Shown: positions 3,947 to 27,980 of the stretch, in pieces
How positions within the stretch are numbered: position 1 is the first letter of the stretch
How the letters are laid out: each line of letters begins with the position of its first letter
From: Sciscionella marina DSM 45152
GTDB lineage: Bacteria; Actinomycetota; Actinomycetes; Mycobacteriales; Pseudonocardiaceae
Reading direction: 5' to 3'
Length of the DNA stretch: 64,000 bases
NCBI RefSeq assembly: GCF_000379465.1
Contig: NZ_KB905381.1
Location: 372,001-436,000 of the forward strand
The notes under the pieces: generated by a model
The model's database searches: none
Told to the model about the DNA's origin: nothing
What the model saw: the letters and a program-made list of their open reading frames with translations, nothing else
Translations under genes and position numbers: made by a program

Positions 3947-5541
3947 CGGTCTCCTCCGGAATCTGTCGCGCCGCGGACCGTGTCGGGTGGAAGTGCGTCG
4001 CCGCGCCAGGCGACGATGCCGTCCGGGCGGATGAGGACGAGCGCGTGCTCGTAGCGCGCGGCGATGGATTCCTCACCGATATCGATGACCTGCACGGGTA
4101 ATCCCGAACCCGGCAGTGCGGTGGTGCTCACGCTGGTGTCGAAGCGAAGCAAGGTGAATCCGTCCCCGAACAGATCCAGCACGGATCGCCCGTCCGGTAG
4201 CCAGGCATGCGGTGCCCGGTGCCCCGGTCGCGCGCTCGGGGTGTACTCGCTTGCCTCATCGGGTGGTTCCGGGCTGCCGTCATCGAGAATGACCGGCGAG
4301 TCCCGATAGCGGTAGCCGAGCGCCACACCGCGGGAGAACCACTCCTGTTCCAGCTTGCCGCTCAACCGCGTGGCGGCCTGGGCACGTTCCCGTTCTCCCC
4401 CGGCCGAATCCTCGTGGATGTGCTCGTAGCGCATCGGTTGCGACCAGACCGTGTAGTTCGCGCTCGAGTAGGCACCGTTGCGCAGCGCGACCTCGCGGCG
4501 TTCGGCGCTGTAGGCGTCCAGCAGCGTTTCCCCGCCCCAGCCGGGCAACCGGGCAGCCAGTACCCAGCCGAGCCCCGCGGCGTCGAGCAGTCCGGTGTTC
4601 GCGCCGTGCCCACCGGTCGGCGACATGGTATGCGCGCTGTCCCCGGCGAGGAGCACCCGGCCGCTGCGGAAGGCGCGGGCGGTGTACCGGCTGCGCCGCC
4701 AAGGCACCACCTTGAGCAGCTCCCACGGCACGTCCGCGCGCCCGAACGCCCGCTCGAGATGCGCGGCCGGGTCGAGTTCGTCCGGGTTGAGCCTGCTCTC
4801 CGCCCCGATCAGGGTCAGCCGGTAGATCGATCGGCCGTCCATCGCGGTGAGATTGCCCCACACGCCGGTGGTGTCCAGAAACATGTACCGCTCGCCGGGC
4901 CCCATCGGGTGGTAGCGTTCGAAGTCCTCGACCCGGATGGTCAGGCTCACCGAATAGTCGAGATCCTCGCCCTCGAACGGGATCCCCGCCGACCGCCGGA
5001 CCGCGCTGCCCACTCCGTCGGCGCCGACCAGATACCGGGCCCGTATCGTGTCCCGGCTCCCGTCGCGTGCCCGCACGACCGCGGTGACGGCTTCCCGGTC
5101 GTGCTCGGTGATCGCGGTGAACTCGGAACCGAGCCGGAAGTCCACGAGCCCGGTTTTCCCGGCGGCCGCGGCGAGGATCGGGGTGAAGGTGTACTGCGGA
5201 CAGCTGCACAACACCTCGGCGCTGTACTCGGTGCCGCGTTCCCGATACGCCGGTACCGGGTCGCGACCGCACACGAAACCGTTCATCGAGGTGCAGTAGT
5301 AGGTGTCCCGTGGACGCTCCGGTGGGAAACCCGCCTCCGCGACCTGGCGCGCGATCCCCAGCGAGCGGAAGTACTCCATGCTCCGCTCGTTGAGCACCGT
5401 CGCCTTCGGCACGAATTCTCCGGACAGGTCCGGAGACCGGTCGACCACGGTGCTCGGCACGCCGCGCAGGCCGAGATCCAGTGCCAGGGCCAGCCCGACC
5501 GGTCCGCCGCCGATGATCAGGACGGTATTCGCTGCTGTCAT
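3943..5541 (-). CDS. FAD-dependent aromatic monooxygenase (PheA/MhpA-type)
   Basis: A 532-residue group A flavoprotein hydroxylase. The Rossmann fingerprint IIGGGPVGLALALDL is at the N-terminus, the DG-type motif GADGVGSAVRR is mid-protein, and the second FAD motif GDSAHTMSPTGGHGANTG follows. The last ~150 residues resemble the thioredoxin-like C-terminal domain of phenol/resorcinol hydroxylases. It is expected to use NAD(P)H and O2 to hydroxylate a phenolic ring. The start at 5541 lies inside the cupin stop codon (ATGA overlap) and its own stop overlaps the amidohydrolase start the same way, so three genes are tightly coupled. Long reading frames running upstream in this frame are shadows of the cupin gene. 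Confidence 0.87.
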   Translation of the reverse strand: MTAANTVLIIGGGPVGLALALDLGLRGVPSTVVDRSPDLSGEFVPKATVLNERSMEYFRSLGIARQVAEAGFPPERPRDTYYCTSMNGFVCGRDPVPAYRERGTEYSAEVLCSCPQYTFTPILAAAAGKTGLVDFRLGSEFTAITEHDREAVTAVVRARDGSRDTIRARYLVGADGVGSAVRRSAGIPFEGEDLDYSVSLTIRVEDFERYHPMGPGERYMFLDTTGVWGNLTAMDGRSIYRLTLIGAESRLNPDELDPAAHLERAFGRADVPWELLKVVPWRRSRYTARAFRSGRVLLAGDSAHTMSPTGGHGANTGLLDAAGLGWVLAARLPGWGGETLLDAYSAERREVALRNGAYSSANYTVWSQPMRYEHIHEDSAGGERERAQAATRLSGKLEQEWFSRGVALGYRYRDSPVILDDGSPEPPDEASEYTPSARPGHRAPHAWLPDGRSVLDLFGDGFTLLRFDTSVSTTALPGSGLPVQVIDIGEESIAARYEHALVLIRPDGIVAWRGDALPPDTVRGATDSGGDR

Positions 5542-6089
5542 GGTGTCGCTCCGTCCGCCGCTGCCTCGTTTGCTGAGCACATGACGAACAGCGCGGTCGC
5601 CTGCCGACCGGTCCGGTTGCGCCAGGCGTGCCTGGCCGTCAGCTGCACCAGGGTTTCCCCGGGGCACAGGGTGGTTTCCGCGTCGTCGAGCAGCACGGTC
5701 AGTTCGCCGTCGAGGACGATCGCGAAATCCACCGTTCCGGTCGCATGCATGCCCGGGATTTCCTCGTCCCCGGCATAGATTTCGGCGCCGTCCACCGCGG
5801 CGAAGGCGGCGCGCACCTGGTCGCCACCCGCGCCGAGCCAGCGTTCGTCCGGCGGGAACCGGATCAGCTTCGCCGCCAGGCCACGGGGCGGCGGTTCGAT
5901 CCGTGCCCCGCTCATCCTCAGGGCGACATCCCCGCTCGCTGCGGGAAGTTCCGCCAGGCGCAGGAGATCGGTGATCGCACAGATCGCGGTGTCCTGCCCG
6001 ACCGGTATTCGTTCGTCCGTGATCACCGTGGAGCGCCCGGTTTCGTCGCGGCCGGTCACCACCCGCCGCGTGCTGGTCGCCTCCGTCAT
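5538..6089 (-). CDS. Cupin-domain protein
   Basis: A 183-residue protein with one C-terminal cupin barrel. Motif 1 is PGMHATGTVDFAIVLDGE and motif 2 is PGETLVQLTARHAWRN. Only one of the two motif-1 histidines is present, so the metal site is incomplete compared with dioxygenase cupins; this favours an isomerase, binding or regulatory role over ring cleavage. The first ~90 residues resemble the lead-in of the family often encoded next to short-chain or flavin oxidoreductases of aromatic catabolism. It is the second gene of the operon, 20 bases after the HbpS-like gene and overlapping the monooxygenase by 4 bases. Confidence 0.8.
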   Translation of the reverse strand: MTEATSTRRVVTGRDETGRSTVITDERIPVGQDTAICAITDLLRLAELPAASGDVALRMSGARIEPPPRGLAAKLIRFPPDERWLGAGGDQVRAAFAAVDGAEIYAGDEEIPGMHATGTVDFAIVLDGELTVLLDDAETTLCPGETLVQLTARHAWRNRTGRQATALFVMCSANEAAADGATP

Positions 6090-6109
6090 CGGAGCCCTCC
6101 TTTCCGGGG

Positions 6110-6535
6110 TCAGCCGAGTGCGTTCGCCCCGGCCGTGGCGATCCGCTCATCCGCGCTCCAGTGCCCGCCGGAGACACCGATCCCGCCGATCACCCGGCCG
6201 TCGAGGGTCAGCGGCAGCCCGCCGCCGAAGGGCACGAACCGCTCGATCCCGTCCGGCGCGCCCATCGCCAACGGCGCGTCCTGTTGCAGGAACTCGTGCC
6301 ACTGCGCGCTCGGCATGCCGAACCCGGCCGCCGTGTAGGCCTTGTCCTGTGCGATCTGGGTGGCCTGCAGCGCGGCGTCGTCCATCCGCCGGAACGCGAG
6401 CAGGTTCCCGCCCGCGTCCACCACGGCGACCGCCGAGGCCTGTCCGCTGTCCTGCGCGGCCGCGATCGCCGCCGCCACCACGTGCTGTGCCGCCGTGCTG
6501 CTGATGCTCGGTACCTGTCGAACGATCTCGGTCAT
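6110..6535 (-). CDS. GlcG/HbpS family (DUF336) heme-binding-like protein
   Basis: A 141-residue DUF336 protein. Family hallmarks are AAQHVVAAAIAAAQ, VAVVDAGGNLLAFRRMD, AQDKAYTAAGFGMPS and the glycine-rich end GRVIGGIGVSGG. HbpS and GlcG members bind heme or small ligands, and many stand next to oxygenase genes without a proven catalytic role. No signal peptide is visible, so it should act in the cytoplasm. It is the first gene of the minus-strand catabolic operon. The promoter region with a 16-base palindrome (6576-6591) separates it from the divergent marR-like gene. Confidence 0.85.
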   Translation of the reverse strand: MTEIVRQVPSISSTAAQHVVAAAIAAAQDSGQASAVAVVDAGGNLLAFRRMDDAALQATQIAQDKAYTAAGFGMPSAQWHEFLQQDAPLAMGAPDGIERFVPFGGGLPLTLDGRVIGGIGVSGGHWSADERIATAGANALG

Positions 6536-6575
6536 GAATGAGCCCCTTCTGTGTGTTCGCTCGGTGCCTGCAGTT

Positions 6576-6591
6576 TATCAGTAGGCTGATA
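6576..6591. promoter_or_regulatory. Palindromic operator, probable MarR site
   Basis: TATCAG-TAGG-CTGATA is a perfect inverted repeat with 6-base arms, lying between the divergent HbpS-like operon and the MarR-family gene. Size and position fit a MarR dimer site controlling both directions. Binding itself is inferred. Confidence 0.65.
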
Positions 6592-6655
6592 GTTGTCAAT
6601 CTGCTGCCTGTCAGTATTGGGGCGATTTTTCGTGTGCTGATCGCCATGCGGGCGG

Positions 6656-6661
6656 TAAACT
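6656..6661 (+). promoter_or_regulatory. -10 hexamer of a probable leaderless marR transcript
   Basis: TAAACT ends 6 bases before the ATG at 6668 and no Shine-Dalgarno fits in between. The transcript therefore probably starts at or next to the start codon. Confidence 0.5.
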
Positions 6662-6667
6662 GGGCAT

Positions 6668-7126
6668 ATGGCGCATTACACGGCGCGGCTGCTGGCCTAC
6701 ATCAAGCGCGCGGAACAGGCCACGCAACAGGCCAAGGAGCAGGCGTTGCGCGAGTACGGCATCACTCCGGCGCAACAGGCCGCGCTGACCATCATCCAGG
6801 AGTACGACGGCATCAGCTCCGCCGAGCTCGCGCGGCAGTGCCAGGTCACCCCGCAGACCATGAACAGCACCGTGGGGCGCCTGGAGGCCCGCGGGCTGGT
6901 CGACCGCAGCCCGCATCCCATGCACCGCACCCTGATCGAACTGCGGCTCACCCCGGACGGGCGTGAACTGTTCACCCGCGCCGACAAACGGGTCGCCGCC
7001 CTCGACGCCGCCCTCGGCGCCGACCTCAGCGCCGCCGAGCTCGACACCCTCAAGAACCTGCTCACCCGCGTCGCCGAGGCGGCACCGCAGGCCGGGGCGC
7101 GACGGCGGCGCACCAAGAGCTCCTGA
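6668..7126 (+). CDS. MarR-family transcriptional regulator
   Basis: A 152-residue winged-helix regulator. Residues ~30-95 hold the HTH (SSAELARQCQVTPQTMNSTV) and the wing (RSPHPMHRTLIELRLTPDG), followed by the long C-terminal dimerisation helices. MarR proteins usually repress and are released by phenolic or aromatic ligands. Being divergent from the HbpS-cupin-monooxygenase-amidohydrolase-amidase operon, with a palindrome in between, it is the likely repressor of that operon and of itself. The effector is unknown but plausibly the aromatic substrate. A NUDIX gene follows 9 bases later and may be co-transcribed. Confidence 0.88.
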   Translation: MAHYTARLLAYIKRAEQATQQAKEQALREYGITPAQQAALTIIQEYDGISSAELARQCQVTPQTMNSTVGRLEARGLVDRSPHPMHRTLIELRLTPDGRELFTRADKRVAALDAALGADLSAAELDTLKNLLTRVAEAAPQAGARRRRTKSS

Positions 7127-7135
7127 GGAACCGAC

Positions 7136-7567
7136 GTGGCTTCCCTGCCGAATCATTCGGTGAGCGTGTCCGGCATCGTTGTCGACGAACTCGAGCGCGT
7201 GCTCGTCATCCGGCGCGCCGACAACGGACGTTGGGAAGCCCCCGGTGGAATTCTCGAACCGGGGGAGAGCTTCGCGGAAGGGGTGCGCCGCGAAGTCGCC
7301 GAAGAGACCGGGATGGACAGTGCCGTCGGCGAACTCAGCGGCGTCTACAAGAACATGTCCCGCGCGGTCGTCGCGCTCGTCTTCCGGTGCAGCCCGGCCG
7401 GTGCGGCCGTACAGTACACCGAGGAGGCGGCGGAAGTCCGCTGGATGACCCGTGAAGAGGTTCGTGCCCATATGTGCCCGGCCTTCGGCATCCGGGTGCT
7501 CGACGCATTCGAACCGGGAACACAGGTCCGCATTCACGACGGCGTGCATCTCGTATCCGGCCGGTAA
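7136..7567 (+). CDS. NUDIX hydrolase
   Basis: A 143-residue NUDIX protein. The full box GX5EX7REUXEEXGU occupies about residues 38-60 (GILEPGESFAEG, then REVAEETGM), with the catalytic REVAEE helix intact. It hydrolyses a nucleoside diphosphate linked to another moiety. The length fits small housekeeping or MutT-like hydrolases; substrate not determinable. The GTG start lies 9 bases after the MarR stop with CTGAGGAACC as a weak ribosome site, so the two may share a transcript. Confidence 0.85.
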   Translation: MASLPNHSVSVSGIVVDELERVLVIRRADNGRWEAPGGILEPGESFAEGVRREVAEETGMDSAVGELSGVYKNMSRAVVALVFRCSPAGAAVQYTEEAAEVRWMTREEVRAHMCPAFGIRVLDAFEPGTQVRIHDGVHLVSGR

Positions 7568-23051: not shown

Positions 23052-24566
23052 TCACGCCTTCGGCGCCGGGAGCCCGCCTCGCATGAGTGCGGCTCCCGGC
23101 GCCGAGGTCTGTTCGGCGGCGAACCGCTGCGCGTCCGCCTCCTCCACACAGCGACCGGCGTCCAGCACGGCGATCCGGTCGGCGAACGGCAGCAGGGTGT
23201 CCAGGTCGTGCCCGATGAGCAGCAGGGTGGTTTCGCTGCGTTCGGCCGCCGCGGTCAGTACCCGCAGCAACCGGGTGGTGCTTGCCGGGTCGAGGCCCGA
23301 GGTGATCTCGTCGCACACCAGCAGCCGCGGCCGCGCGAGCAGGGCCCGCGCCAGGGCACACCGCTGCAACTGCCCACCGGACAGCGAGCGCGGTGGGCGT
23401 TCGGCGGCCGCGGGGTCCACGCCGAGCTCGCCGAGCAGCCCGGCGGCCTCCTCCCGGGCGTGTGTCCGGCTCGCGCCACGCAGCCACCGCGCGGTCGCGG
23501 CGATCTGGCCGAGTGTCCCGGAGTTCTCGGCGAACGAGGCGCGGCTGTCCTGGTGCACGTACTGGATGGCGCGGCGCAGTGCGGTTTCCCGTTTGCCCGC
23601 CACCGTGGGGACCGGTTTCCCATCAAGGGTCACCGTGCCGCGCGCGCCGGTCAGCCCGGCCAGCACCCGGCCGAGCGTTGTCTTGCCCGCCCCGGAGGCG
23701 CCGAGCAGCACCGTGGTCGCCCCGGCGGGCACGGTGAGTTCGAGATCGGTGAGAATGCCCGGCACCCGCAGCCCGCGCACCTCGAGCGCCGCGCCGCGCG
23801 TGCGCGGCCGCGGGACCGGTGCCGGTTCGCTGGTCAGTTCCCGGGTCTTGGCCGCGCGAGGGGCGCGTAGCAGGTTCCCGGCCGGGCCGTGTTCGATCAA
23901 TTTTCCGCCGTCGAGCACGGCGATCTCGTCCGCGAGGGCGCGCACCGCGGCGCGGTCGTGGGTGAGCAGCAGCAGCGCCTTACCCGATTCGGTGAGCAGC
24001 CGCAGCCGGTCGAGCAGGTCTGCCTTGGTGCCCGGATCCAGCCCGGTGGTCGGTTCGTCCAGCACCAGCAGGCCCGGCGCGCAGACCAGGGTCGTGGCCA
24101 GCGCCATCCGCTGCTGCTGGCCACCGGAGAGCCGATGCGGATGGCGGCGGGCCAGTCCGGGTTCCAGTCCCGCGTCCCGCAGCGCAACCGTGACGGTGTT
24201 CGCGCGGTCGGTCCGGCCGCGGTTCCGGATCCCGGCCAGTTCGCGCAGTACCGGGCCGCAGCGGCGGACCGGATCCAGCACGCTCGCGGGATCCTGCGGC
24301 AGATGCCCGAGCGCCCTGGCCCGGGCCCGTACGCGCTCGGAGGTGTTGTGGTGCAACAATTCCGTGCCCGATACCCGCACGCTTCCGGTCAACCGCACCC
24401 CGTTCGCGGCCTCGCCGAGCGCGGCAAGGCCGAGCGTGGTCTTCCCGCTGCCGGACTCACCGAGCACCGCGAGCACCGAACCCTCTTGCACATCAAGGGA
24501 AATCCCGCTCAACAGTTCGTGTTCTCCCGCGCTCGCGCCGAGATCGGTGAGTTCGAGCAGAGTCAT
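23052..24566 (-). CDS. Fused dipeptide/nickel-type ABC transporter ATPase (two NBDs)
   Basis: A 504-residue protein with two ABC domains in tandem. NBD1 (~1-235) has GESGSGKTTLGLAA, LSGGQQQRMA and LLVLDEPTTGLD. NBD2 (~265-500) has GASGAGKTTLGR, LSGGQLQRCA and LLVCDEITSGLD. It corresponds to DppD and DppF (or NikD and NikE) fused in one chain. The ATG overlaps the upstream permease stop by 4 bases. Longer reading in this frame upstream is a shadow of the permease. It energises the importer formed with the permeases at 24563 and 25324. A cobalamin riboswitch heads the operon, so a cobalt, nickel or corrinoid-linked substrate is likelier than plain dipeptides. Confidence 0.9.
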   Translation of the reverse strand: MTLLELTDLGASAGEHELLSGISLDVQEGSVLAVLGESGSGKTTLGLAALGEAANGVRLTGSVRVSGTELLHHNTSERVRARARALGHLPQDPASVLDPVRRCGPVLRELAGIRNRGRTDRANTVTVALRDAGLEPGLARRHPHRLSGGQQQRMALATTLVCAPGLLVLDEPTTGLDPGTKADLLDRLRLLTESGKALLLLTHDRAAVRALADEIAVLDGGKLIEHGPAGNLLRAPRAAKTRELTSEPAPVPRPRTRGAALEVRGLRVPGILTDLELTVPAGATTVLLGASGAGKTTLGRVLAGLTGARGTVTLDGKPVPTVAGKRETALRRAIQYVHQDSRASFAENSGTLGQIAATARWLRGASRTHAREEAAGLLGELGVDPAAAERPPRSLSGGQLQRCALARALLARPRLLVCDEITSGLDPASTTRLLRVLTAAAERSETTLLLIGHDLDTLLPFADRIAVLDAGRCVEEADAQRFAAEQTSAPGAALMRGGLPAPKA

Positions 24567-25330
24567 CGCAGCCTCGCCAGGTAACGGTCGACGGTGAGGT
24601 TGGCGCCCACGCACAGCATCGCCAGCAGCGCGGCAGGCACCAGCACGGCCAGCGGCTGGGAGAACAGCGCGGTCGCATTGCGCTCGATGACCACGGCCCA
24701 GTCCGGGGCGGAACCGGGCAGCCCGAGCCCGAGGAAATTCGCCGAGGCCAGCAGGTAGAGCACGATGCCGAGCCGGGTCCCGGCATCGGTGGCGACCGGG
24801 CCGAGCGCGGAGCGGGCGACGTAGCCGAACTGGATCCGCCACCACGGCATCCCCTGCAGATACATCGCCTCGACCGCGGTGCGGCAGCCGGGAGCGAGCG
24901 CGGCGGCCCGCACGATCCGGGTCACCGCGGGCAGTTGCAGCACCGCGGCGGCCACGATCAGGGTTGCCGGTTCCCGGTGCCCAGCCGCCGCGAGCACCAT
25001 GAGCACCAGCAGCCCGGGGAAGGCGAGCAGGATGTCGAGCACCCGCAGCACCGCCTCGTCCGTACCCCGGCGCCGCCTGCTCGCCGCGAACAGGCCGAGC
25101 GGCACCCCGAGGAGATAGGCGAGCAGCAGCGCGGCCAGGGTCATCCCGGCCACCGAGGTGCCGCCGGAGAACACCAGCGCCAGCACATCCCTGCCGAGCG
25201 CGTCGGTGCCGAGCGGGTGCCCGTTTTCCGGGCCCAGCAGCGGATCCGCCTCCGGTGCCGCGTTCAGCGGGAGGAGAGGGCCGAATACGGCGAGCACGAG
25301 CGGGATAGCCGGCAGCAGGATTCTCAGCAC
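24563..25330 (-). CDS. ABC transporter permease, DppC/NikC type
   Basis: A 255-residue inner-membrane permease. It opens with a hydrophobic helix, then the DppC-type sequence DPLLGPENGHPLGTDALGRD, in which G-T-D-x-x-G-R-D is the family marker. The cytoplasmic coupling loop is EAMYLQGMPWWRIQFGYVARSAL. About six TM segments are visible. Its start overlaps the end of the upstream permease by 7 bases, and its stop overlaps the ATPase start by 4 bases. It forms a heterodimeric channel with the 25324-26271 product. Confidence 0.88.
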   Translation of the reverse strand: MLRILLPAIPLVLAVFGPLLPLNAAPEADPLLGPENGHPLGTDALGRDVLALVFSGGTSVAGMTLAALLLAYLLGVPLGLFAASRRRRGTDEAVLRVLDILLAFPGLLVLMVLAAAGHREPATLIVAAAVLQLPAVTRIVRAAALAPGCRTAVEAMYLQGMPWWRIQFGYVARSALGPVATDAGTRLGIVLYLLASANFLGLGLPGSAPDWAVVIERNATALFSQPLAVLVPAALLAMLCVGANLTVDRYLARLR

Positions 25331-26271
25331 GCCGCACGCTCCCGCTGTGGGGTGAAGCGGTGCGCGAGCAGATCGCCGAGCAGATTCACCGTGATGATCA
25401 GGATGGCGAAGACGAGCACATACCCTTGCACGGCAGGGAAATCCCGGTTCTGTACCGCCTCGATGAACCCGGTGCCGAGGCCACGCACGGAGAACAGCGT
25501 CTCAACCACCAGTGCCCCGGAGAACAGGCCCTCGATCGTGCGCGCCGACTGCTGGATCAGCGGGGCGAGCGCGTTCGGCAGCACGTGGCGCAGCAGCACC
25601 GTGCGTTCGTCGAGCCCGAGCAGCCGCAGATGCCGGGCACTCGGGCTTCCCGAATGGGCCGCGACCCCGATGCGCACCTGGCGGGCGAGATCGCCGAGCT
25701 GGGCGCCGAGCAACACGGTCACCGGGAGTACCAGAACCGCGGGCTGGGCGAGCAAACCGATCCCGTCCGCCCCGACGGTCGTGGCCGGGAACAGTCCCGT
25801 GTAGACGGAGAAGGCCGCGACCACCAGCAGGCCGAGTACGAATTCCGGGATCGCGTGCAGCCCGACGGTGACCGCGGAAAGCAGCCGGTCGGTCCGGGAT
25901 CCCTCGCGCAGCCCGCTGGTCACCCCGACCGCTGCGGCGAGCGGGAACAGCACGGCCATGGCCAGCCCGGTGAGGATCGCGGTGCTCGCGAACCGCTGCG
26001 CGAGTTCGGTGCTCACCGGAACCCCGGTGACCAGCGAACGGCCCAGGTCGCCGGAGAACAGGGCGCCGAGCCAGTCGCCGAACCGCTGGGGAAGCGGCCG
26101 GTCCAGCCCGAGCTGATCACGCAGCACGGCCAGTTCCTCCGCGCTCGCCCGCTCCCCGCCGATCACCGCGGCCGCGTCCCCGGGAAGCAGCGCGGTGAGC
26201 CCGAATGCGGCGAGCAGCACCACGGCGAGCTGACCGACTGCGACGGCGAACCGGGTCAGCAGGAACCGCAC
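25324..26271 (-). CDS. ABC transporter permease, DppB/NikB type
   Basis: A 315-residue permease. The N-terminal helix (LTRFAVAVGQLAVVLLAAFG) is followed by the DppB-type periplasmic segment LPGDAAAVIGG ... LRDQLGLDRPLPQRFGDWL. The coupling loop is ARHLRLLGLDERTVLLRHVLPNAL. GTG at 26271 was chosen because the folded domain begins there. It lies 5 bases beyond the stop of the binding-protein gene, whose end supplies GATCTCCTGA as a weak ribosome site. Longer upstream reading is a shadow. It is the first permease of the riboswitch-led operon. Confidence 0.87.
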   Translation of the reverse strand: MRFLLTRFAVAVGQLAVVLLAAFGLTALLPGDAAAVIGGERASAEELAVLRDQLGLDRPLPQRFGDWLGALFSGDLGRSLVTGVPVSTELAQRFASTAILTGLAMAVLFPLAAAVGVTSGLREGSRTDRLLSAVTVGLHAIPEFVLGLLVVAAFSVYTGLFPATTVGADGIGLLAQPAVLVLPVTVLLGAQLGDLARQVRIGVAAHSGSPSARHLRLLGLDERTVLLRHVLPNALAPLIQQSARTIEGLFSGALVVETLFSVRGLGTGFIEAVQNRDFPAVQGYVLVFAILIITVNLLGDLLAHRFTPQRERAAC

Positions 26272-26275
26272 CGGT

Positions 26276-27774
26276 TCAGGAGATCCGCGCCGATTCGAAC
26301 CGCGCCCAGGCGTGCGAGTTCGGCGGCGCGGCCCGGACACCGTGCACCCGCCGGGAAACCCCGATGTACCAGTTGCTGAATCCCCAGGCGAGTAGCCCGC
26401 CGTGCTCGTGCACGATCTGCTGCGCCTCGGCGAGCAACCCGAGGCGGTCCGGTTCCGGCCGGGTGGCCGCCGCGCGGTCGAGCAGCGCGTCGTAGCGCGG
26501 ATCGGTGAAGCCGGTGACGTTCATCGAGGCGCCGGTGCGGAACCGCTGGGAGAGGAAGCTCGTGATCGGCAGGGTCGCCGTCCTGGTCTGCGCGGCGACG
26601 CCCTCGGTCTTCGTCTGCGCGAAATAGGTGCTCGCCGCGCGGGTGTTGGGCCGCACCCGCAGGCCGATCTCGCCGAGCTGGCGGGCGATCAGGGTGGCCG
26701 CCGACTCGAAGACGGGGATCGTGGAACTCGTCTCGATCGGGAAGGAAGCCCCTCCGCGCCCGCCTCCCGGACCAGGGCACGGGCCCGGTCCACATCCCGG
26801 TGCCGCTGCGGGATGGCCGCCGCATAGCCGCGCTGGCCCTTGTCGAACAGGTCATTGCCGACCGAACCGTGCCCGGCGAGCGCGATCCGGACCAGATCCT
26901 GGCGGTCCACGCCGTAGTACACCGCCTGCACCAGCCGGGGATCGTCGAACGGCGGGCGGCTCACCCGCAGGTTGACCGCCTGCATCGTGGTGCCCCGCGC
27001 GGTGAGTACCCGCGTATCCCCGGTCAGCCGCGCGGCCGTGGTCGCGGTGACATCGTGGGCGTAGTCGACCTGGCCGGAAAGCAGCGCGTTCGCCCGCGCC
27101 GACTCGTCCTGGACCGGGACGAACTCCAGTTCCTCGATCCCGGACTCGCCCGCCCAGTGCCCGTGCCAACGGCGGAACACCGCCTGTCCGCCGGGAGTGA
27201 AGGAGACGAAGCGGAACGGGCCGGAACCGATCGGCGCGGTGAAGTCCTTCGTCCCCTCCGGCAGGATCTCGGTCGAGGGCGCACCCCACGCCGCAGGGAA
27301 CTCGAAATCCGGGTTGTGCAGCACCAGTTCGAGCTCGGTCGGCGAAATCCGGCGGCAGGACGGGAAATCCACTCCCGCGAAGTACTGCCGGGATGCCGAG
27401 GCCAGCTTTGGATCGGCGACCCGGCGCATGCTGTACAGCACGTCCGCGGGGTCGATAGGGCGGTTGTCGTGGAACCGGGCACGGCGCAGCCGGATCCGCC
27501 ACCGCCTGCCGCTGTCGTCGCTCTCCCAGGACTCGGCCAGCCGCGGGCGCACCGACATGTCGTCGGCGTAGGTGACCAGCGTGTCGAACAGTGCCTTCGC
27601 CCGTGCCTGGTCGACGAAGTTGGTGGCGCCGAGCGGGTCCAGGGTCTCGCGCGAACCACCGGACTCGAACGCCACACGCAACCGGTTCGATCCGGCCCCC
27701 GTTCCGCATCCGGCCACCGTCAGCCCGGCGGCCATACCCGCGGCCGAGGACAACAAGCGCCGTCGAGTGAGCAA
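26276..27774 (-). pseudogene. Frameshifted solute-binding protein gene (SBP_bac_5, Tat lipoprotein)
   Basis: The gene encodes a dipeptide/nickel-type binding protein in two frames. From 27774, MLTRRRLLSS (twin arginine) leads to a lipobox TVAGC (Cys23), and the SBP_bac_5 fold runs with ALFDTLVTYADDM, RPRLAESWE and PIDPADVLYSMRRV. After DRARALVREAGAEG the frame breaks in a run of four C on the plus strand (26749-26752). Restoring one base would give EGASFPIETSSTIPVFES and continue in the other frame to RFESARIS and the stop at 26276-26278. As written, the product would be a truncated ~361-residue protein. Real inactivation and a sequencing error are both possible; the rest of the operon is intact. 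Confidence 0.82.
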
Positions 27775-27856
27775 CGAGAACCTCCTGGAACATCACGCGA
27801 CGTCCCAGGGCAGGTATGCCATGAGACCCGCTCTGCAGACCACGACAGTCAGGGGT

Positions 27857-27980
27857 CGATAACGCGCGGCAGGCATCCCGGCTCACGGCTGTTCTCGATC
27901 GCCGTTCACGGTTGCGGGTCAGCGCCGGACTCTCACCGGCTTCCCCCGCCGCGCGCGATATTCGGTTGTGCGACTCCGGG
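27857..27980 (-). promoter_or_regulatory. Cobalamin (B12) riboswitch
   Basis: On the minus strand the leader of the ABC operon contains GGGGAAGCCGGTGAGAGTCC, then GGCGCTGACCCGCAACCGT and the B12-box region GTGAGCCGGGATGCCTGCC, in the correct order. Closing stem P1 forms between CGCGCGGC and GCCGCGCG at the two ends (about 27944-27956 and 27862-27870). It ends about 80 bases before the binding-protein start. Such elements shut off expression when adenosyl- or methylcobalamin is plentiful. Exact outer borders are approximate. Confidence 0.88.

Follow-up and report, generated by a model that had tools for sequence, protein, structure and literature searches.

In this study, a stretch of 64,000 nucleotides of Sciscionella marina DSM 45152 (contig NZ_KB905381.1, positions 372,001 to 436,000; the whole stretch is hereafter called the window) was analysed, with attention to the minus-strand operon at positions 23,052 to 27,980, in which a cobalamin riboswitch precedes the genes of an ATP-binding cassette (ABC) importer. 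We consider it somewhat favoured, at a probability of about 0.57, that this operon encodes an importer of cobalt carried as a small organic chelate and made only when vitamin B12 (B12) is short. The larger find is a candidate cobaltophore cassette that lies outside the window, in relatives. For the cobalt that soil bacteria need for B12, few candidates are available beyond ion importers, and a cobalt-specific chelator under B12 control, if true, would add a new connection to B12 metabolism.

The riboswitch and the importer operon of the window

The whole window was scanned with cmscan against Rfam 15 at gathering thresholds, and a single match was obtained, that of RF00174 (Cobalamin) on the minus strand at 27,851-27,968, with 56.4 bits (gathering cut-off 31.5 bits, full model), an E value of 2.5e-11 and model positions 1-189, which bears out the B12-riboswitch leader that the initial annotation had placed at 27857-27980. 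This aptamer of 118 nt is of a compact form, the peripheral parts of the RF00174 model being nearly missing in the cmscan alignment. Our own riboswitch model, R1, built from 23 sequences taken partly from riboswitches of the window importer family, scores it at 108.6 bits at 27,851-27,970, the window sequence being among its 23 members. Between the aptamer and the start codon, the sequence contains a putative expression platform, the hairpin CCTGGGAC/GTTCCAGG (27,784-27,809, minus strand), whose 3' arm, the GTTCCAGG end, overlaps the Shine-Dalgarno AGGAGG (27,781-27,786), with a TTG start 6 nt further. Among nine closely related sequences, the window and eight relatives, which lend it thin support, seven of the eight pairs are formed in all nine and the outermost pair in two; one pair is altered on both sides, a count equalled by 216 of 500 shuffles, and the covariation score of the nine is matched by 13 of 500. 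A competing helix GTCYC/GGGAC is also possible in the leader. The candidate Shine-Dalgarno hairpin points weakly to translational control.

Behind the riboswitch, on the same strand, follow a gene for an SBP_bac_5 solute-binding lipoprotein (26,276-27,774; PF00496, 191 bits), a DppB/NikB-type permease (25,324-26,271; PF00528 and PF19300; GTG start at 26,271 taken from the sequence, a longer open reading frame (ORF) to 26,340 being possible), a DppC/NikC-type permease (24,563-25,330; PF00528) and a fused double ATPase with DppD and DppF in one chain (23,052-24,566; two ABC_tran stretches, 173.5 bits, scanned from 24,572; ATG at 24,566). One SBP_bac_5 protein, two BPD_transp_1 permeases and ABC ATPases in one operon is the gene set of a peptide/opine/nickel importer, and the N-terminus of the binding protein, MLTRRRLLSS...TVAGC, resembles a twin-arginine lipoprotein signal as judged by eye. 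The initial annotation had named the same genes and in this was correct, but it missed a frame break in the binding-protein gene near 26,746. The N-terminal ORF of 361 residues covers 26,689-27,774, and the C-terminal third lies in a different frame, ending at 26,276; an alignment with the gene of Sciscionella sediminilitoris (94% identity), whose frame is open over 499 residues (PF00496, 212 bits), places one single-base gap in 1.5 kb there, in the window copy.

This is either a freshly broken gene or an error of the draft assembly (86 contigs). That the window copy is a decaying gene without present function, which would be compatible with any reading for the relatives, is a chance of appreciable size, short of an even one: it would agree with the single-base break and with a paralogous riboswitch-led importer on contig C18 of the same genome (locus L042), whose binding protein is open over 503 residues, whereas the downstream permease and ATPase genes of the window are open and 92-96% identical to those of Sciscionella sediminilitoris, and an assembly error is equally likely.

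As the window copy is truncated, the intact Sciscionella sediminilitoris protein was used for the cut-off scans of the binding protein. It fell below the NCBIfam equivalog cut-offs of NikA (99 of 600 and 76 of 393 bits), DppA (66 of 1005), OppA (51 of 947) and the staphylopine protein CntA (40 of 800), and the window proteins themselves remained below those of NikB (163 of 447), NikC (93 of 358), NikD (249 of 319) and NikE (287 of 333 bits). These scores agree with the initial annotation that the family name would be misleading, and the automatic label 'peptide/nickel transporter' is corrected hereby for the clade of solo importers described below. SBP_bac_5 was the sole Pfam match of both the window and the sister binding protein, and a BtuF-like match of the CbtJKL kind was not obtained from either. 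The nearest neighbours of the predicted binding-protein fold were AapF (41.2), AgaA (40.5), a nickel-type protein of S. aureus (40.1) and DppA (39.2), and they include a Ni(L-His) binder.

Riboswitch conservation and linked cassettes in relatives

A family-wide search with the binding protein gave a match in 83 of 150 genomes at E <= 1e-30, distant paralogues included, and a search of 188 relatives kept 79 loci, found in Amycolatopsis, Actinokineospora, Saccharopolyspora, Prauserella, Saccharomonospora, Pseudonocardia, Streptomyces and others. With R1, the riboswitch was detected in 42 of 55 loci (L126-L179 and L192; at least 42% identity), in 34 of which it precedes the binding-protein match by 66-256 nt and in eight by 3.4-3.6 kb; RF00174 runs on separate loci, independent of R1, agree with this result. 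Outside the 42/55 count, no riboswitch was found in L180, L181 (a 104-residue fragment, 65%), L184, L188 and L195, and loci at 33% identity or less (L182, L183, L185-L187, L189-L191, L193, L194 and L196-L204) were left out of the riboswitch search. In a binding-protein tree of 70 rows, the window falls in a clade of 36 (support 96/94), and every one of the 36 has the riboswitch at the head of its gene or operon, so that the pattern which would have spoken against the initial annotation, relatives lacking the riboswitch and clustering with dipeptide transporters, was not found in this clade. This clade consists of 24 solo importers from Sciscionella, Amycolatopsis, Actinokineospora and Streptomyces, which form a subclade with support of 100/100 holding the window (8 Pseudonocardiaceae and 16 Streptomyces rows), and 12 importers from genomes with DUF364-type, pyridoxal-phosphate (PLP) enzyme and MFS genes. 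The solo-importer clade was seen in 22 Streptomyces records. Outside the window clade, a directly upstream riboswitch occurs in 2 of 34 rows, L042, the own C18 copy of Sciscionella marina, and L104. The latter (genome G010; 5483-7364, minus strand) is a distant importer with 34% identity in its solute-binding protein; the cobalamin riboswitch immediately before it scores 105 bits and seems to have been recruited separately.

In the eight loci with the riboswitch at 3.4-3.6 kb, the gap is filled by DUF364-type, PALP and MFS genes. A close DUF364 type, matching at E 1e-120 or better, was observed in 14 genomes of the family sample, inside the importer operon in eight and elsewhere in six, five of these six split-locus producer genomes being from one genus (g46). 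RF00174 heads all 14 synthesis operons as well as all six separate importer operons, and since riboswitches stand at the separate maker and importer loci, the maker is tied to the importer independently of gene order. Pfam identified the DUF364 type, PALP and MFS_1 in L058, L059 and L061, other loci being assigned via tblastn. The Pfam family DUF364, described as 'putative heavy-metal chelation' (cut-off 23), was reached by three of four proteins scanned, with 28.0, 25.0 and 24.0 bits. One predicted model of the DUF364-type protein of these relatives (mean pLDDT 82; the protein is not from the window genome) aligned with 3npg and 3l5o at Z 18.3 and 3.1 A over 222 and 215 residues, respectively, with the next row at 11.0, and displays the enolase-N and Rossmann-like fold of both. 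These two structures are PH1506 (3npg) and Dhaf4260 (3l5o), for which heavy-metal chelation was proposed from context in the available text of the structure paper, in which no cobalt, operon or cysteine synthase is mentioned (PMC2954201). The PALP protein (L061) has the staphyloferrin B synthesis enzyme SbnA, likewise a PLP enzyme of the cysteine-synthase kind, as its best NCBIfam match (TIGR03945); unlike SbnA, it remains below the curated cut-off (243 of 350 bits) and no SbnB was noticed adjoining. No opine dehydrogenase CntM was found among the genes between riboswitch and importer, whole genomes not having been searched for it. Across the phylum, a DUF364 search at E <= 1e-40 (six candidates scored per genome) matched in 5 of 396 genomes, all of one genus; a deeper DUF364 group (L105, L106, L214-L216 and L219) was set aside, the PALP matches of L105 and L106 being only about 31% identical.

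Compact aptamers of 113-127 nt without the peripheral region were noticed in the solo importers of Pseudonocardiaceae (the window and L126-L133) and in one Streptomyces (L143), and longer ones of 162-174 nt in producers and the remaining Streptomyces; the two forms may differ in ligand preference.

A second type of cassette (type 2) harbors the same DUF364-PALP-MFS core with an importer of 43-50% identity, to which ATP-grasp, enolase-superfamily, methyltransferase and GNAT genes are added (by Pfam in one locus each, L092, L099, L092 and L124, respectively; elsewhere from ORF lists). RF00174 was detected in none of ten type-2 loci. Instead, Zur-like palindromes (the published Streptomyces Zur motif being tGaNNatSatNNtCa, PMC5472717) lie 1.3-1.5 kb before the DUF364 gene, about the start of the ATP-grasp gene, in 8 of 12 loci at three mismatches or fewer and 11 of 12 at four or fewer (shuffle means 0.007 and 0.08 loci), the scanned region of -1900 to -1000 having been picked after the positions were known and five box patterns having been tried. 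Such a site was present in none of 21 riboswitch-type loci, and scans for other boxes gave scattered matches only, at three mismatches (Nur type), or no matches (IdeR type). Seven genomes hold both riboswitch-type and type-2 cassettes. For the analysis of descent, 41 loci were offered and 40 DUF364 and 37 PALP rows kept, a row being dropped where the matched stretch was absent or held a stop. The 18 riboswitch-type rows of the PALP tree form a 100/100 clade nested among Zur-type rows, which suggests descent of the cobalt type from the zinc type; the DUF364 tree, with the two as sister groups (85/71), leaves the direction undecided. It is a natural reading that one metal-scavenging cassette exists in a form under zinc control and in another under B12 control, the regulator naming the metal, and B12 control of the riboswitch type suggests cobalt. 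The type-2 loci L092-L099, L124, L125, L168 and L179 are in themselves candidate zincophore clusters of Pseudonocardiaceae and Kitasatospora.

A supply of cobalt by the riboswitch type would predict that some B12-making genomes with the cassette do without other cobalt importers. Among 137 CobN-positive genomes, CbiM, NicO and CbtA were all absent from 8 of 14 producers and from 7 of 123 others (Fisher 6e-6), and from 4 of 10 vs 7 of 123 (p 0.004) when the five-genome genus g46 was collapsed to one, in related genomes and by a test devised after the producer group was defined. Twenty genomes with a weak NicO match (E 5.8e-9 or worse; ten over the Pfam cut-off) were scored as NicO-negative, and only one of them, G001, falls in the group lacking all three. 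The prediction held in part. Other cobalt importers were not strictly replaced, as 6 of 14 producers keep known importers (CbiM and NicO in five, CbtA in one more) and all three are absent from none of six solo genomes, that is, the riboswitch-type importer genomes without the close DUF364 type among the 150, excluding those of genus g5, in which no importer has its own riboswitch.

The B12 regulon of Sciscionella marina and the substrate of the importer

The window genome (G000; 8.5 Mb, 86 contigs) harbors 11 cobalamin riboswitches over the cut-off, and CobN is present. Judged by neighbouring genes, these riboswitches lead, among others, two metE genes, a FecCD/BtuF-type operon (L044), a putative cobaltochelatase, CobN and CbtA, and further ones stand before a methylmalonate-semialdehyde dehydrogenase, before nrdAB and before the paralogous importer. 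Synthesis of B12 by Sciscionella marina is thus very likely, and its B12 regulon is wide and includes the window operon. In the second importer locus (contig C18, L042:8819-18642), the order is riboswitch, nrdA, nrdB, riboswitch and then the genes for the solute-binding protein, DppB, DppC and DppDF, an order shared with Streptomyces sp. 8L (L158). On contig C22 (L046:5186-7007, minus strand), a 95-bit cobalamin riboswitch lies 41 nt ahead of an ORF matching the CoA-acylating methylmalonate-semialdehyde dehydrogenase TIGR01722 with 645 bits, and a propionate/valine route that is independent of B12 may here be under B12 control.

In the mechanism we propose, the leader would be open at low B12, leaving the Shine-Dalgarno free so that the importer is made, and bound cobalamin would favour the hairpin, in which that site is masked. 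The lipoprotein would capture a cobalt chelate, DppB, DppC and DppDF would pump it inward, and the cobalt would go to CobN and B12 synthesis. In the full relatives (Saccharopolyspora, Prauserella, Saccharomonospora and others), which are candidate cobaltophore systems, synthesis of the chelator would fall to the DUF364-type protein and the SbnA-like PLP enzyme and its export to the MFS protein, all under B12 riboswitches. It is these DUF364, SbnA-like and MFS genes, together with the Zur-box sister systems, that point to cobalt in chelated form and not to the free ion. Sciscionella marina has the importer without the maker and appears to be a non-producer; its importer, if the gene works, would use the chelates of others, and its probable cargo is a chelate of outside origin or cobalt on common ligands. 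The wider proposal, that B12-riboswitch-led operons with DUF364, SbnA-like, MFS and Nik-type genes are systems dedicated to cobaltophores and related to the zincophore cassettes governed by Zur, and that the wide solo clade of Streptomyces, Amycolatopsis and Sciscionella takes the cobaltophores of others, is tentative, and we hold it at slightly less than an even chance. If true, the three linked genes would be a testable pathway, and the split between producers and non-producers would offer a counterpart of siderophore piracy for cobalt.

It is important to note that several observations weigh against the import of a cobalt chelate by the window operon. The binding protein is broken as assembled, and its predicted fold fails to separate binders of peptides, opines and nickel chelates. 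Maker genes were not found in the window genome, where DUF364 had no match (nor in the sister genome G040) and the best PALP match reached 37%. The close DUF364 type was seen in none of 30 solo-importer genomes (22 Streptomyces, 6 Amycolatopsis, 1 Actinokineospora and 1 Sciscionella), 14 of which have a more distant type, and because makers are missing there, the chelate link of the solo clade rests on kinship; nor is the solo importer the only cobalt route in the six solo genomes tested above. As for the cassettes, the DUF364 scores are barely above the Pfam cut-off, and for one of the four proteins scanned, that of L110, Pfam gave no match at E 0.001. In the tree, L142, L164, L165 and the loci L117-L119 of genus g5 lie just outside the window clade without a riboswitch directly before the binding protein; one leads a nearby nrdAB in L117 and L119 and a CobN-like gene 7 kb upstream in L142.

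An importer of Co(II) on common ligands such as histidine or citrate, with no dedicated chelator, has been predicted for the B12-riboswitch-led NikABCDE systems of Clostridium tetani and Desulfitobacterium hafniense, and the same is conceivable here, though we regard it as unlikely. Nik-type systems with a B12 riboswitch have already been reported (in the text available for PMC2667541), the importer stands solo in Sciscionella marina and in the 30 genomes checked, and the Ni(L-His) binder among the fold neighbours would fit; against this, the sister clade has the DUF364-PALP-MFS genes in the same regulon, riboswitch-led in 14 of 14. An importer of a corrinoid, B12 or a precursor, is quite improbable. 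An association of B12 riboswitches with genes for B12 uptake has been described (PMC7689651), and nrdAB, coding for a B12-independent enzyme, adjoins the C18 paralogue and, in Streptomyces sp. 8L, the importer, but the window genome already has the riboswitch-led FecCD/BtuF-type operon, the operons of relatives add genes of chelator type and not of corrinoid type, and the binding protein is of the peptide/opine/nickel family. A peptide importer supplying methionine or another nutrient in place of B12-dependent steps is the least probable of all, as the intact sister protein lies far under the DppA and OppA cut-offs and the linked DUF364, SbnA-like and MFS genes and Zur-box sister systems would be left unexplained, despite the riboswitch-led metE pair and methylmalonate-semialdehyde dehydrogenase of the genome and the place of DppA among the close folds. 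The initial annotation, which had offered cobalt, a corrinoid or a B12-replaced function, is thus partly supported, in that a role in cobalt and B12 supply is likely and a corrinoid unlikely, the substrate probably being a cobalt chelate.

Relation to known systems and further observations

With reference to the portions of the literature available to us, the window operon resembles NikABCDE of C. tetani and D. hafniense, Nik/Dpp-type ABC importers behind a cobalamin riboswitch that were distinguished from nickel-specific ones (PMC2667541); unlike these Firmicutes systems, it belongs to Actinomycetota, has a fused ATPase, lies under the NikA cut-off and has relatives linked to chelator-type genes. 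CbtJKL of Sinorhizobium meliloti is also an ABC cobalt importer with a B12 riboswitch, but its binding protein CbtJ is BtuF-like and that of the window is of SBP_bac_5 (PMC7689651). The cassettes of relatives resemble staphylopine Cnt and other opine-like metallophore systems in combining synthesis genes, an exporter and, in some, a chelate importer of dipeptide/oligopeptide type (PMC7438024); unlike Cnt, they have no identified CntM-type opine dehydrogenase in their operons, and have instead the DUF364 type, the SbnA-like enzyme and the B12 riboswitch. The main text of that opine-zincophore survey holds 'cobalt' once, and B12, riboswitch, SbnA and DUF364 are absent from it (PMC7438024). A cobalt metallophore under B12 control was not described in the open-access literature searched, at the level of titles and abstract openings.

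Arrays of two or three paralogous solute-binding proteins of the window importer family were noticed in L117, L118 and L119 of genus g5 and in L164 and L165. A radical-SAM gene stands beside the arrays of L118 and L119, and by eye we take it to resemble mycofactocin MftC. Back-to-back cobalamin riboswitches on opposite strands, before diverging genes, were observed in two Streptomyces loci (L147:15798-16120 and L148:6341-6676).

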